Source: Chloroflexota bacterium
Lineage (GTDB): Bacteria; Chloroflexota; Chloroflexia; Chloroflexales; Herpetosiphonaceae
Reading direction: 5' to 3'
Length of the DNA stretch: 64,000 nucleotides
Assembly (NCBI GenBank): GCA_020161265.1
Contig: JAIUOC010000006.1
Location: 186,001 to 250,000 of the forward strand
Numbering within the stretch: the first letter of the stretch is position 1; each line of letters starts with the position of its first letter. Position numbers and translations under genes: made by a program. Shown here one piece after another: positions 13,374-58,788 of this stretch. The notes below the pieces were generated by a model. That model was not told where the DNA came from, ran no database searches, and saw nothing but the letters and a program-made list of their open reading frames with translations.

Positions 13374-13482
13374 GAGGGGTCAGGGACGAGAGATCAGGGA
13401 TCAGGATTAATTAAACTGACTCCTAGCTCCTAAATTCTGACCCTTATCGTTTTTCAAACTGACCCCTAGCCCCTGACCCCTC
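13374..13482. repeat. Inverted GGGGTCAGGG / CCCTGACCCC string element
   Basis: GAGGGGTCAGGG at 13374 is matched in reverse complement by CCCTGACCCCTC near 13472-13482. Between them lie degenerate copies (ATCAGGGATCAGGA, CTGACTCCTAGCTCC, CTGACCCCTAGCCCC). The whole araD-araA spacer is made of this element, and it ends four bases before the araD stop. Related strings occur at 7988-8050, 53041-53080 and 55820-55950. Confidence 0.75.
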
Positions 13483-30472: not shown

Positions 30473-30490
30473 CTGGAACTTCACCCATAG

Positions 30491-30519
30491 CCCCCTCTCC
30501 CGCACGCGAGGCGAGGGGG
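30491..30519. repeat. REP-like CCCCCTC / GAGGGGG hairpin
   Basis: CCCCCTC (30491-30497) and GAGGGGG (30513-30519) lie 18 bases after the alaS stop. A better formed relative occurs at 37326-37352. It may stabilise or end the alaS message; there is no T-run. Confidence 0.5.
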
Positions 30520-30595
30520 AACCAGTTTGCAATGGTAGGTTTTAATCATGGTCTGTTTCGAACCACGGAATCGGTGGATGTGAGACATTCCCGAA

Positions 30596-30671
30596 TTGTC
30601 CTTGAGGGGGTGCAGGGGGATTAAAGCCCCCTGCGTTTCCCGCCTTGAGGCGGGACGGAAGGGTGGTGATC
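30596..30671 (+). repeat. 76-bp two-hairpin dispersed repeat, copy 2
   Basis: This copy is the inverse of 25950-26025. It holds two perfect stems, GCAGGGGG with CCCCCTGC, and CCCGCC-TTGA-GGCGGG, separated by CGTTT. It lies in the 417-base gap between alaS and the gp47-like gene. Confidence 0.82.
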
Positions 30672-30782
30672 ACCGATTTTTGATGATCACCATACTATTG
30701 GTTAAAACCTATCCTTGAAAGGAATGGGCTAAGGGTGATGGTTCACTCATAGCTCACCCCAATCGCCCAATGAGGGACCAAA

Positions 30783-30847
30783 CTGTGGTGTTGCCCTCAT
30801 CAGGATAAGATCGTTGTACAATATTGCCGATCCTGCCAACACCACAG
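30783..30847. promoter_or_regulatory. Long nested dyad upstream of the gp47-like gene
   Basis: CTGTGGTGTTG (30783-30793) and CAACACCACAG (30837-30847) are perfect complements. Inside them AGGAT..GATCG and CGATC-CT form a second, inner dyad around TTGTACAATATTGC. The structure ends 42 bases before the ATG at 30890. It may be an RNA leader stem or a looped operator over a promoter (TACAAT lies in its centre). Confidence 0.55.
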
Positions 30848-30889
30848 CATCCGATGTGTGTTCATTCTGAAAGCTTTGGGGGCAACCCA

Positions 30890-35304: not shown

Positions 35305-35319
35305 AGAAACCTCTTTTGA

Positions 35320-35508
35320 AAGGATGAAGGATGAGGGATGAAGGATGAAGCCAAAATGCAAGAGATTGAGTTGTAACCACGAAGAGCACGAAGGACACTA
35401 AGTTTTGCGCAATCGGTTACTACCATTTTGTTGCAATTTAGGCATTTAACAAATCTAAAATTCGTGTTCTTCGCGGTTAAATTTCATCCTTCATCCCTCA
35501 TCCTTCAT
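35320..35508. repeat. Nested inverted repeat of GGATGAAGG and ACCACGAAG strings
   Basis: The left half is GGATGAAGGATGAGGG-type sequence, then AACCACGAAGAGCACGAAGG; the right half is TTCGTGTTCTTCGCGGTTAA and CATCCTTCATCCCTCATCC. Both modules are inverted in the correct nested order, so the 189-base spacer between malG and the GH42 gene is one imperfect palindrome with a loop of about 60 bases. Confidence 0.8.
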
Positions 35509-35511
35509 AAT

Positions 35512-43254: not shown

Positions 43255-43332
43255 TGAAGCTCCTTTGGGGTTGGCCGCTGGCTTGATCTTACCATATCTG
43301 AGCAACTTTGTGCATTCAATAGAAGAAGTAAC

Positions 43333-45496: not shown

Positions 45497-46966
45497 ATGC
45501 GACTTTGTGGTTTTACTGCTGGATGGTTACTTGGGCTGTGGTTAAATGATAGGCTGCAAATAGCATGGTATCTATATTTTATCGCATCAATAGCAATTAT
45601 TTTAATCATTATCTATATCCGAAAATCATGGCAGGTTATGCTGATAGCAATATATGCTGGTACTATGCTAGGGGTAGTACGAATGGCGGTCAGTCAAAAT
45701 TCCTCAAATCTTGACGATATTCGTCAACAGATTGGCATGACGACCCGTTTAGAAGGGGTGATTGTCGGTGAGCCACAATGGACTCCTCAGCAACAACGGG
45801 TGGTGTTAGCCGTCCACGCTTATCAGCATGAACAGCAACGTGTTGCCACAACTGGCCAAATTATGTTGACCTTGCCCGCCGAGCCACCGCGCAGCAATGG
45901 CGAACGCTTGTTAGTCAGCGGCACAATCATCACGCCAACCGCTAGCCCAAATTTCGATTATGCCGAATATCTGCGTCGCCGCTCAATCTATGCCATGCTT
46001 GAGCCTGCAACCGTTGAACAAGCCTTGCCTGCGAAAACTTCAGCCTATCAACGCTTACTCACGCTCAAACAGCGCTCCCAAACAATCATCAATCAAACGC
46101 TGCCCCAACCTCAAGCAGCAGTTTTGGTCGGAATGTTGCTGGGAGTCAAAAGCAGCGTGCCTCAAGCTGTGTGGGATACCTTCAATCGCACTGGGCTTTC
46201 GCATATCTTAATCATCTCAGGCTGGAATATTACAATTGTGGTGGCGGCGTTATTGGGTTTGGGCAAGGCCTTAAAGCTCAGTCAACGCCACGCCACCATG
46301 GTGGCAATTGGCGCAATTGTGGTGTATGTGGCCTTTGTGGGAGCCAGCGGGGCTGTGATTCGCGCTGCCTTGATGGGCGCAATTGTGGCCTTGGCCCAGC
46401 CGCTTGGCCGTAAATCCGATGCTTGGGCAGCGCTTGCGGCGGCAACTTGGCTCATGACCCTAATCGATCCGCATACCTTATGGGATTTAGGCTTTCAACT
46501 ATCAGCGTTGGCCACGGCTAGCCTATTTGCCTGGGGCAAGCCAATTGAAGCCAAATTGCGTCGGTGGCTGCGTTGGCGCTGGCTCGAATGGATGATCGAG
46601 CCATTGACCGCAACCTTAGCCGCCCAAATTTGGACACTGCCGATCATTCTGTATCATTTTGGCAATCTCTCGTTGATTGCACCTGTGGCTAATGTATTGA
46701 TTGTGCCAGTTGTACCGTTGATCATGGCCAGCGGCGCGGTATTGGCCTGTTTAGGCTTATTTGGTCGTTGGTTAGCCTTTTTGGCCTTGCCAATCACATG
46801 GGCGGCACTAACTTGGGTTGTAGAGGTGGCTGCATGGCTGGCCGATTTGGCTTGGGCAGCGGTCGAAATTCCTAGGTTTGGCATAAGCTGGCTGTTGCTG
46901 GCGTATGGCTTGAGTGTTGGGGCGAAGGCGTGGATGGAGCGAGAGAACATAGAGCAAAGAACATAG
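45497..46966 (+). CDS. comEC: ComEC/Rec2-family competence membrane protein, short form
   Basis: A 489-residue polytopic protein. Two N-terminal helices lead to a DUF4131/OB-like extracellular domain (about 70-180, RLEGVIVGEPQWTPQQQRVV), then the Competence membrane domain with VLVGMLLGVKSSVPQAVWDTFNRTGLSHILIISGWN. The C-terminal metallo-beta-lactamase domain seen in long ComEC proteins is absent. It forms the DNA channel of natural transformation. ATG 45497 is seven bases after GAGGAG. The last eight codons (RENIEQRT) are read from a GAACATAGAGCA-type repeat string, so the native C-terminus has been replaced or extended. Confidence 0.9.
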   Translation: MRLCGFTAGWLLGLWLNDRLQIAWYLYFIASIAIILIIIYIRKSWQVMLIAIYAGTMLGVVRMAVSQNSSNLDDIRQQIGMTTRLEGVIVGEPQWTPQQQRVVLAVHAYQHEQQRVATTGQIMLTLPAEPPRSNGERLLVSGTIITPTASPNFDYAEYLRRRSIYAMLEPATVEQALPAKTSAYQRLLTLKQRSQTIINQTLPQPQAAVLVGMLLGVKSSVPQAVWDTFNRTGLSHILIISGWNITIVVAALLGLGKALKLSQRHATMVAIGAIVVYVAFVGASGAVIRAALMGAIVALAQPLGRKSDAWAALAAATWLMTLIDPHTLWDLGFQLSALATASLFAWGKPIEAKLRRWLRWRWLEWMIEPLTATLAAQIWTLPIILYHFGNLSLIAPVANVLIVPVVPLIMASGAVLACLGLFGRWLAFLALPITWAALTWVVEVAAWLADLAWAAVEIPRFGISWLLLAYGLSVGAKAWMERENIEQRT

Positions 46967-47236
46967 AGCATAGAGGGATGAGGGGCTAAGGATGAAGATT
47001 GAGTAGTTGGGTTTTTAACCACGAAGCAGGAATTTAACGCAGCGGCGCTGAGGGAAGTAAGAAGGATGAGGGATGAAGGATGAACAGCTCATTCGTGTAA
47101 TTCGTGCAATTTGTGGCGAAACAACTCTTCGCGTGCTTCGTGAATCAAAAAACTTAAATCTCCAGGTACAATATTATGTTCTATGCTCTATGTTCTATGT
47201 TCTGGCTTTCATCCCTCCTCCTTCATATTTCATCCT
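46951..47236. repeat. Composite repeat block after comEC
   Basis: In order: GAACATAGAGCA strings (46951-46972), GAGGGATGAGGGGC, ACCACGAAGC, TTTAACGCAGCGGCGCTGAGG (part), GGATGAGGGATGAAGG (about 47070-47083), inverted AATTCGTGCAATT and CTTCGCGTGCTTCGTG, inverted TATGTTCTATGCTC (47175-47203) and inverted CATCCCTCCTCCTTC (47209-47226). The families and their orientation give a nested inverted repeat of about 285 bases. Nothing coding was seen. Confidence 0.78.
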
Positions 47237-47237
47237 T

Positions 47238-50653: not shown

Positions 50654-50918
50654 GAAGGATGAAGGATGAAGGATGAGGGATGAATGTTAGAACAAAGAAC
50701 ATAGAGCATAGAACATAAGGTTGTTATTGGGATCGAGAATTGTGAGGCTTGACCCACTAAGAACACGAAGTTACACGAAGGATTATTTTTTAGCCACGAA
50801 TTGCACGAATGAGCTGTTCATCCTTCATCCCTCATCCTTCATCCTTCCCTTAGCGCCTCTGCGTTAAAAAATAACCCCATAATCGTTATGTTCTATGTTC
50901 TATGCTCTTTGTTCTATA
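50654..50918. repeat. Composite repeat block after the Uma2 pseudogene
   Basis: Order: GGATGAAGGATGAAGG and GGATGAGGGATGAA (50656-50684), GAACATAGAGCATAGAACAT (about 50697-50716), AAGAACACGAAGTTACACG, GCCACGAATTGCACGAAT, then inverted CATCCTTCATCCCTCATCC (50819-50847), inverted CTTAGCGCCTCTGCGTTAAA and inverted TATGTTCTATGTTCTATGC (50887-50906). The same families as at 46951-47236, again nested and inverted. It contributes the stop codon of the Uma2 frame. Confidence 0.78.
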
Positions 50919-51515: not shown

Positions 51516-51558
51516 AGCACATGGCTTTGGGGTTGGTTGTTGGGAAGCGGAAGGCTTG

Positions 51559-51701
51559 ATCCACGAAGAACACGAAGTTACGTTTAAACCGCGAAGGGCG
51601 CAAAGAGCACGAAGGAACTGATCGTAGCGATCCTTCGCGCTCTTCGCGGTTAAAAAACTTTTCACTAGATCTTCATCCCTCATCCTTCATCCTTCATCCC
51701 T
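51559..51701. repeat. CCACGAAGAACACGAAG and CATCCTTCATCC block
   Basis: Two direct strings (CCACGAAGAACACGAAG; ACCGCGAAGGGCGCAAAGAG) face the inverted CCTTCGCGCTCTTCGCGGTT (about 51630-51649), followed by inverted CATCCCTCATCCTTCATCC at 51676-51701. It fills the gap between the Uma2 pseudogene and the CBS gene and ends five bases before the CBS stop. Confidence 0.75.
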
Positions 51702-51705
51702 ACAA

Positions 51706-52906: not shown

Positions 52907-53163
52907 ATCCACGAAGGACACGAAGGGTTGAAACCGCGAAGAACGCGAAGGCTATATTTAGCCACGAATTGCACGGATTCCACGAATTATTCTTTTGCTA
53001 TTCCCAATATGTTCCGGCATTGACTCAGTGCTATGCTTAATCCTGACCCCTAGTCCCTGAATCCTGACCCCTAGCCCTTTTGCATTAATTATTTTGCCTT
53101 TTGATTTCTGCCTTTTGACTTGCTCCAATTTGCCTTTTGACTTCTGCCTTTTGACTTGCTCCA
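52907..53163. repeat. Mixed repeat block between SIMPL gene and oxyR
   Basis: CCACGAAGGACACGAAGG, ACCGCGAAGAACGCGAAGG and GCCACGAATTGCACGG (52909-52970) are followed by CTGACCCCTAGTCCC and CTGACCCCTAGCCC (53042-53078), then four alternating TGCCTTTTGACTTC / TGCTCCAATT units (53093-53162). The last array lies inside the oxyR 3' end. Confidence 0.78.
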
Positions 53164-55674: not shown

Positions 55675-55950
55675 AAGGATGAAGGCTAAATTATGAGGGA
55701 TGAACATCTAGCGCCTTTGTAATGCAGTGGCGCAGAGAAATTAAAGGTTGAGGCTCTTGGCCGTAGTAGACGATTATCTACCGGACCAAGAGCCTTTTTA
55801 TGGATCTACGAAGGGCGAGGGTTCAGGATTCAGGGGCAAGGGGCCAGATTTGACTTACCCAGCCCAATCATACAGCCTGACCCCTAGTTACTGACCCCTG
55901 ACCCCTCTCACTATTTGGGTTAAAAACTGCCCGACCCCTGAACCCTCGCC
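55675..55950. repeat. Mixed repeat block after katA
   Basis: GGATGAAGGCTAAATTATGAGGGATG and AGCGCCTTTG...GTGGCGCAGAG strings (55675-55740, in pieces) are followed by GGGTTCAGGATTCAGGGG (55818-55836) and inverted CCTGACCCCTAGTTACTGAC and CCCGACCCCTGAACCCTC (55857-55949). The last part codes for the C-terminus of the next gene. Confidence 0.72.
55751..55800 (+). terminator. Terminator downstream of katA
   Basis: AGGCTCTTGG (55751-55760) pairs with CCAAGAGCCT (55786-55795), then TTTTTA. It lies 84 bases after the katA stop, inside a repeat block. Confidence 0.75.
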
Positions 55951-58704: not shown

Positions 58705-58709
58705 CCGAA

Positions 58710-58775
58710 AGGATGAAGGACGAAGGATAAAGGATGAAGCTGTTTCATCCCTCATCCCTCATCCTTCATCCCTTC
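58710..58775. repeat. GGATGAAGG / CATCCTTCATCC hairpin between dnaJ-like gene and clpC
   Basis: GGATGAAGGACGAAGG and AGGATGAAG (58711-58739) face TTTCATCCCTCATCC and CTCATCCTTCATCCC (58743-58773) around a loop of a few bases. This is the tightest example of the GGATGAAGG family and fills nearly the whole gap; AAAGGG just after it serves as clpC ribosome site. Confidence 0.82.
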
Positions 58776-58788
58776 AAAGGGTTTTTAT

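Follow-up and report, generated by a model that had tools for sequence, protein, structure and literature searches.

Short tandemly repeated repetitive (STRR) sequences made of heptamers were reportedly described in cyanobacteria by Mazel in 1990. Published accounts already cover tandem arrays of heptamers and their face-to-face pairing in Xanthomonas (PMC4692102, PMC4679880), with 70 cases of GGGAATC in facing pairs in Xanthomonas campestris pv. campestris (Xcc) (PMC4692102). The closest described system is that of the intervening sequences of 23S ribosomal RNA (rRNA), for which passages of one source report an S23-family gene whose flanking terminal inverted repeats pair into a stem (28 bp in Coxiella) and a sporadic spread that suggests transfer (PMC4990558). 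Here we describe the gap after comEC in a stretch of 64,000 nucleotides (the window, G000:C6:186001-250000) of a 6.04 Mb genome, G000, whose relatives place it in the genus Herpetosiphon. This gap probably (roughly 0.7) contains two related classes of minimal intergenic element, as nested copies that lack a gene and are partly eroded.

By analogy, the two classes resemble 23S rRNA intervening sequences: the 7-nt class encodes a PF05635 protein, and a terminal RNA stem is predicted for one of its units (L270). Unlike those sequences, the units lie between protein genes, outside 23S rRNA, and show tandem 7-nt arrays as arms, numerous copies without a gene, nesting, and a further class that carries GxxExxY genes. 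As the units are not in rRNA, they were not filed as members of that system. They share tandem 7-nt units in gaps with STRR sequences and other bacterial heptamers (Xanthomonas GGGAATC, Beggiatoaceae TAACTGA, Geobacter), a description which the 9-nt class does not fit. The link to S23 and GxxExxY genes sets them apart from the published heptamer repeats, the available passages of which do not mention it; nor was a paper linking these genes to such arrays found in the literature searched, mostly papers outside subscription. Unlike clustered regularly interspaced short palindromic repeats (CRISPR), which have longer direct repeats and unique spacers, the units are 7 or 9 nt long and the halves are inverted. 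An earlier note on this DNA, made from the sequence alone, had proposed a modular intergenic element of its own class, with a layout other than that of a repetitive extragenic palindrome (REP), a CRISPR or an ordinary miniature inverted-repeat transposable element (MITE), and the note was supported on these points.

Facing arrays in the gap after comEC

The gap is flanked by comEC (Pfam Competence) and a convergent gene for a ferredoxin oxidoreductase beta-subunit. The positions of the strings that the earlier note had placed in the region 46951-47236, several families forward and then inverted, were verified (Table 1). The gap borders comEC as described there, although its first array overlaps the end of the gene. 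The stop codons of comEC (window 46964-46966) and of a prephenate-dehydratase-like gene (L270 3869-3871) both fall inside the first array unit, AACATAG. Pairing of the arms is imperfect (74-95% complementary for most listed pairs), and the order of the strings is mirrored only in part. The element itself has no gene inside and gave no Rfam match.

Window counts were compared with 100 first-order Markov resamplings. GAACATAGAGCA and GGATGAGGGATGAAGG occur four times each (resampled mean 0, maximum 0) and ACCACGAAG four times (mean 0.22, maximum 2), all above the resampled maxima, whereas TTTAACGCAG (two occurrences; mean 0.20, maximum 2) is within its maximum and therefore not significant alone within the window. 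Across the genome, 131 copies of GAACATAGAGCA were counted and none of its reversed control. When strings were derived de novo from 20 stretches, they reached 25.5 per kb in held-out gaps versus 0.67 per kb in coding DNA. Family strings are present in 20 window gaps, where the earlier note had counted at least eight besides this one; 11 of the 20 contain both signs, with the purine-rich strings first in nine and the reverse in two.

Tandem arrays of two periods follow a strand rule

Further analysis used 864 kb of the genome with 498 gaps of 20-1500 bases, two gaps outside that range being excluded. Gap-enriched ten-base words group into families of tandem 7-nt units (AGARCAT, GGATGAR, GGGRTCA, GGCTATA and GGGGATC; by eye also GTCAAAA/GGCAAAA) or 9-nt units (CACGAAGNN, CGCAGAGNN and CCACAGATT). 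A family-blind scan of the 498 gaps gave 52 arrays of period 7 nt, 15 of 9 nt and one each of 6 and 12 nt, with none at periods 4, 5, 8, 10 or 11 (Markov controls, 0 to 0.3). The modules behind the string families of the earlier note are 7-nt and 9-nt tandem arrays, and the copies that carry a gene fall into two classes tied to S23 and GxxExxY genes.

Before the strand test the families were edited: the automatic families F10, F12 and F16, a separate REP-like palindrome, were dropped, F7 (purine fraction 0.51) was reversed and small families were merged. All purine-rich (R) strings come first and the inverted, pyrimidine-rich (Y) strings after them in 80 of the 94 gaps with both signs, and the reverse is seen in four. 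Mean strand concordance was 0.930, compared with at most 0.635 across 5000 sign shuffles. Adjacent block pairs were R-Y in 104 cases versus Y-R in 27 with unedited families, 94 versus 14 with edited ones, and 88 versus 38 under a cruder first orientation (training and test pooled). Among 183 gaps in sister-genome stretches, 32 were R-Y, one Y-R and 20 mixed. What the earlier note described as mirror order reflects this strand rule and not true complementarity.

In 55 of the 80 R-Y gaps, a family is common to both halves (permuted mean 36.4). Innermost pairs are of one family in 39 of 80 (permuted mean 15.2) and outermost pairs in 20 of 80 (13.0); AGARCAT is outermost 28 times and innermost three times, while GGCTATA is outermost once and innermost 32 times. 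The strand rule and this pattern of sharing are those expected of nested pairs of facing arrays. A single hairpin was rejected, given that the halves have no family in common in 25 of the 80 gaps; halves need not match in nested facing pairs. Purine polarity in itself is a by-product, because the facing arrays of an Anaerolineae GxxExxY locus (L285) are pyrimidine-rich outside. CACGAAG and AGAACAT strings are regionally strand-biased on chromosome G001:C1, among the first 100 places listed.

S23 and GxxExxY genes lie between facing arrays

The arrangement of array, GxxExxY gene and facing array is seen in a Stieleria locus. In Herpetosiphon, all 18 genes examined (13 GxxExxY, PF13366, and five S23, PF05635, the family of the 23S rRNA intervening-sequence protein), which represent five or six sites, lie between facing arrays with a shared family, with R strings on the left and Y strings on the right, as against three of 164 control genes. 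By site, the enclosing families are CACGAAG, CCACAGATT and CGCAGAG around GxxExxY genes and AGARCAT and GGGGATC around S23 genes. Array period goes with gene type. The best flank period of Chloroflexota S23 genes is 7 in 15 of 15 cases (control genes, 35 of 165), and that of GxxExxY genes is 9 in 14 of 29, 8-10 in 22 of 29 and 7 in one of 29. For the 20 loci L247-L266, a first null built on unpaired flanks, with one of 20 above its 99% point, was poor because the loci share families; 16 of the 20 exceed the 95% point (11.5) of the Herpetosiphon control genes, for which slightly shorter flanks had been used.

PF13366 was found in 58 and PF05635 in 91 of 301 Chloroflexota genomes. A two-unit match to family C occurs in 60 of the 301, among them every one of the six Herpetosiphon genomes with 187 to 334 matches each, and is absent from the sister genus. 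PF13366 is present in 14 of the 15 genomes with at least five C strings versus 44 of the 286 others, and in eight of nine when the genus is left out, kinship being ignored in both comparisons. Many CACGAAG and GGTGCTA arrays are present in G214 (L215-L219), a Chloroflexota draft genome that is 97% complete.

GxxExxY sequences of five phyla conserve a G-L-E-Y set and a D, E-x-K set, the latter being the signature of PD-(D/E)XK nucleases, after which Pfam names the family; the protein is a putative nuclease. An AlphaFold2 model of the L154 protein had a mean predicted local distance difference test score (pLDDT) of 52. Sequence searches gave no PDB relative of GxxExxY, and the weak S100 matches of a profile were taken as chance, while S23 matches PDB 2gsc and 2rld. 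The L270 protein scores 100 bits with PF05635 and 93 bits with TIGR02436, and the RNA of its unit is predicted to form the terminal stem (z -5.07).

Arrays are replaced at fixed sites in sister genomes

Orthologous gaps in the five other genomes of the genus (G001-G005) diverge far more than their flanks, with arrays replaced wholesale at fixed sites. The dnaJ-clpB gap (58705-58788) holds facing GGATGAR arrays in three genomes and facing GTCAAAAGGCAAAA arrays in two, and the genomes group differently by flanking single-nucleotide polymorphisms than by arrays. Comparable swaps were observed at 35305-35511, at 51516-51705 and in the comEC gap. At a site before a cimA-like gene (named by eye), an AGARCAT array, an S23 gene and a facing array are present in G000, G002 and G005; G003 and G004 have the same arms without S23 and with a REP-like palindrome inside, and G001 has facing CACGAAG arrays. 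At a second site, CGCAGAG (family D) arrays surround a GxxExxY gene in G003, and the same outer arrays in G001 have other families nested inside.

A separate REP/MITE-like palindrome, CCCTCACCCC..GGGAGAGGGG..GGTGAGGG, is common in Herpetosiphon gaps (L290, L291, L003; window gap 30473-30889); it also occupies the middle of array elements at places where S23 is present in a different genome.

Facing arrays in other phyla and on plasmids

CACGAAGRRCACGAAGRRCACGAAG occurs in at least 119 stretches, the 80 listed coming from Planctomycetota, Desulfobacterota, Gammaproteobacteria, Cyanobacteria, Acidobacteria, Gemmatimonadota and others, and a few lie in coding repeats. Among 89 oriented arrays outside Herpetosiphon, a facing array lies at most 300 nt downstream in 48 and upstream in four, where one pair may count from both sides. 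The 12 Herpetosiphon arrays of this set have no same-family facing array on either side.

Twenty of 21 named plasmid records with S23 were examined, the second ten fetched after the rule had been stated. Facing flanks reached a shuffle p of 0.005 in 17 of the 20, and the best flank period was 7 in 17, 8 in two and 12 in one. Cyanobacterial S23 genes on plasmids are flanked by GGGAAAA, GGGAGTA and GGGAACA units. In a Nostoc plasmid stretch of 46 genes, S23 alone stands out (26.0 versus 12.0 for the next best). Plasmid S23 neighbourhoods include nrd as well as CRISPR-cas (cas6-cas4, cas10-cmr3) and type I restriction (hsdS-hsdR) operons, inside which S23 was seen at L299, L307, L318 and L320.

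Proposed model and alternative explanations

Combining these results, we propose that each unit has a small interior between two arrays of one family, a short tandem array that reads inwards and another that faces it. Intact copies of the 7-nt class (families A, B, E, F and G) would hold in this interior a gene for an S23-type four-helix bundle, and those of the 9-nt class (families C, D and CCACAGATT) a GxxExxY gene, which belongs to the PD-(D/E)XK nuclease superfamily. Insertion of units into one another would account for both the mirrored mosaic and the strand rule. The S23 and GxxExxY proteins may each recognise their own array class and serve gene-less copies in trans. The facing arrays may pair in RNA as a stem isolating the insert, like 23S rRNA intervening sequences; such a stem, by setting the insert apart, could make inserts inside operons tolerable. 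As to movement, we can offer just a doubtful guess, that the nuclease cuts inside an array-bearing site which is then repaired from another copy.

A wider reading is about evenly balanced: a class of the smallest mobile elements, spread across phyla, would use S23 and GxxExxY proteins for recognition or mobility and would end in tandem arrays that face each other and have a class-specific period (7 nt with S23, 8-10 nt with GxxExxY). Its gene-less copies would be the heptamer repeats known from cyanobacteria, Xanthomonas and elsewhere, and 23S rRNA intervening sequences would be a branch that entered rRNA. Heptamer repeats, so far described in several phyla without an origin, would then acquire one, and a genomic role would be found for two small protein families that are common but of unknown function, one of which bears the name of a nuclease. 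The 23S rRNA intervening sequences would join a larger class of intergenic elements that enters operons, those of CRISPR-cas and restriction included. That gene type sets array period is a testable rule.

Several observations weigh against the proposed elements. Most of them contain no gene, and families B, E, F and G were never seen enclosing one in the genus. No gene relics were detected in the 864 kb by tblastn with four proteins, and the GxxExxY motif was found in three of 92 array loci. The string-rich G214 has neither PF13366 nor PF05635. On plasmids the link of GxxExxY to arrays is weak, with clear facing arrays around two of the eight genes, all of which were examined. The compared sites yielded neither a clean empty site nor a target duplication, and the predicted RNA fold of the comEC gap element is only mildly stable (z -1.93).

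Alternatively, the genes may have landed in arrays already present, the 7-nt and 9-nt repeats having arisen first by slippage and S23 and GxxExxY genes having inserted into the loop of matching facing arrays. The many gene-less arrays fit this explanation, as does the occurrence of gene-bearing and gene-less arrays at the one cimA-like site, and slippage of heptamers has been proposed in print, in the part of the paper available (PMC4692102). Slippage, however, leaves unexplained the facing orientation, the sharing of families between halves most evident in the innermost pairs, the exact strings common to several phyla and the swaps of whole units at one site; we therefore regard this origin as unlikely.

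Bidirectional terminators or other regulatory hairpins under selection are far less probable. Their purine-rich 5' and pyrimidine-rich 3' arms would look similar, the comEC gap is convergent, and heptamers have been read as regulator sites in the available parts of two papers (PMC2700814, PMC4679880). R-Y pairs are nevertheless about equally common in divergent (19 of 99), convergent (17 of 82) and codirectional (44 of 317) gaps, and on these counts a terminator or 3' untranslated region was rejected; regulatory hairpins are at odds with the R-Y gaps whose halves lack a common family and with the wholesale swaps.

Slightly weaker still is a telomerase-like process, in which broken ends, extended with tandem repeats by a reverse transcriptase, are subsequently joined. 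Facing arrays do resemble fused telomeres, a reverse transcriptase of PADLOC group UG37 is present in all six genomes of the genus, and DRT10 makes 9-nt tandem repeats, as stated in the portion of the source consulted (PMC12632851). Both cases involve 9-nt tandem DNA, although the DRT10 product is a defence cDNA and not chromosomal. The distribution of UG37 does not match the repeats, for which the process was rejected: the enzyme is full-length without C strings in G073, G124 and G196 (in G196, one control match only) and absent from all 54 string-bearing genomes outside the genus, a comparison made with UG37 and not with DRT10 itself. In addition, the 9-nt units vary in two bases, and genes inside arrays are left unexplained.

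Least probable are MITEs or REP doublets forming hairpins (REPINs) moved by a Y1 (REP-associated tyrosine, RAYT) transposase: they share short inverted conserved ends, variable spacers, many gene-less gap copies and a similar centre at two loci of one genome (L100, L119), whereas here the ends consist of tandem arrays with one of two fixed periods, no target duplication was seen at the sites compared, and the distribution of the transposase is unmatched, Y1_Tnp (PF01797) not being found in G003 and G005 despite 334 and 296 C matches, for which the RAYT explanation was rejected.

Other arrays and repeats in the window

The array features of the comEC gap and of seven other window gaps are listed in Table 1.

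Table 1. Array features of the window, with those of the comEC gap first and other gaps after them.
Feature	Window position	Strand	Strings	Remark
7-nt array, family A (AGARCAT), outer left arm	46944..46975	+	AGAACATAGAGC 46944-46971	comEC stop inside; string positions; family A encloses S23 genes elsewhere in genome
7-nt array, family B (GGATGAR), left	46976..46996	+	GGATGAR 46976-46996	string positions
9-nt array, family C (TTAACCACGAAG), start, single unit, left	47015..47028	+	ACCACGAAG at 47018	family C encloses GxxExxY genes
9-nt family D (TTTAACGCAGCGGCGCTGAGG)	47031..47053	+	TTTAACGCAG at 47033	in G003, a sister genome, family D encloses a GxxExxY gene
7-nt array, family B, inner copy	47062..47084	+	GGATGAR 47062-47084	string positions
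9-nt array (reverse complement, CCACAAATTGCACGAATTACACGAAT), right side	47091..47118	-	TTCGTG units 47091-47140 (this row and next)	string positions
9-nt array, family C, right side	47129..47146	-		string positions
7-nt array, family A, right arm	47175..47203	-	TATGTTCTATGCTC 47175-47203	string positions
7-nt array, family B, outer right arm	47207..47237	-	TTCATCC 47207-47236	similar in 5/6 sister gaps read; alignment shows arm in all
Facing F-family (GGGRTCA) 7-nt arrays	13377..13482	n/a
Nested facing arrays, families B and C	35322..35500			G004 has GTCAAAAGGCAAAA arrays here instead
Nested facing arrays, families B, A, C, D	50657..50901
Facing arrays: C, then C and B	51560..51699
C arrays facing F arrays	52907..53077			different families
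B, D, F arrays facing F	55677..55919
Facing B arrays between dnaJ and clpB	58711..58771			G001 and G002: facing GTCAAAAGGCAAAA arrays, about equal length

The UG37 reverse transcriptase of G000 is encoded at L065 709-3069 on G000:C2 (1223 bits), with 83-96% identity across the five other Herpetosiphon genomes, and is also present in G073, G124 and G196. Another repeat, ACCACCCTTCCGTCCC..CAGGGGGCTTTAATCCCCCTGCACCCCCTAAAGGAC, is inserted in some genomes in the gaps orthologous to those at window positions 43255, 57409 and 63352.
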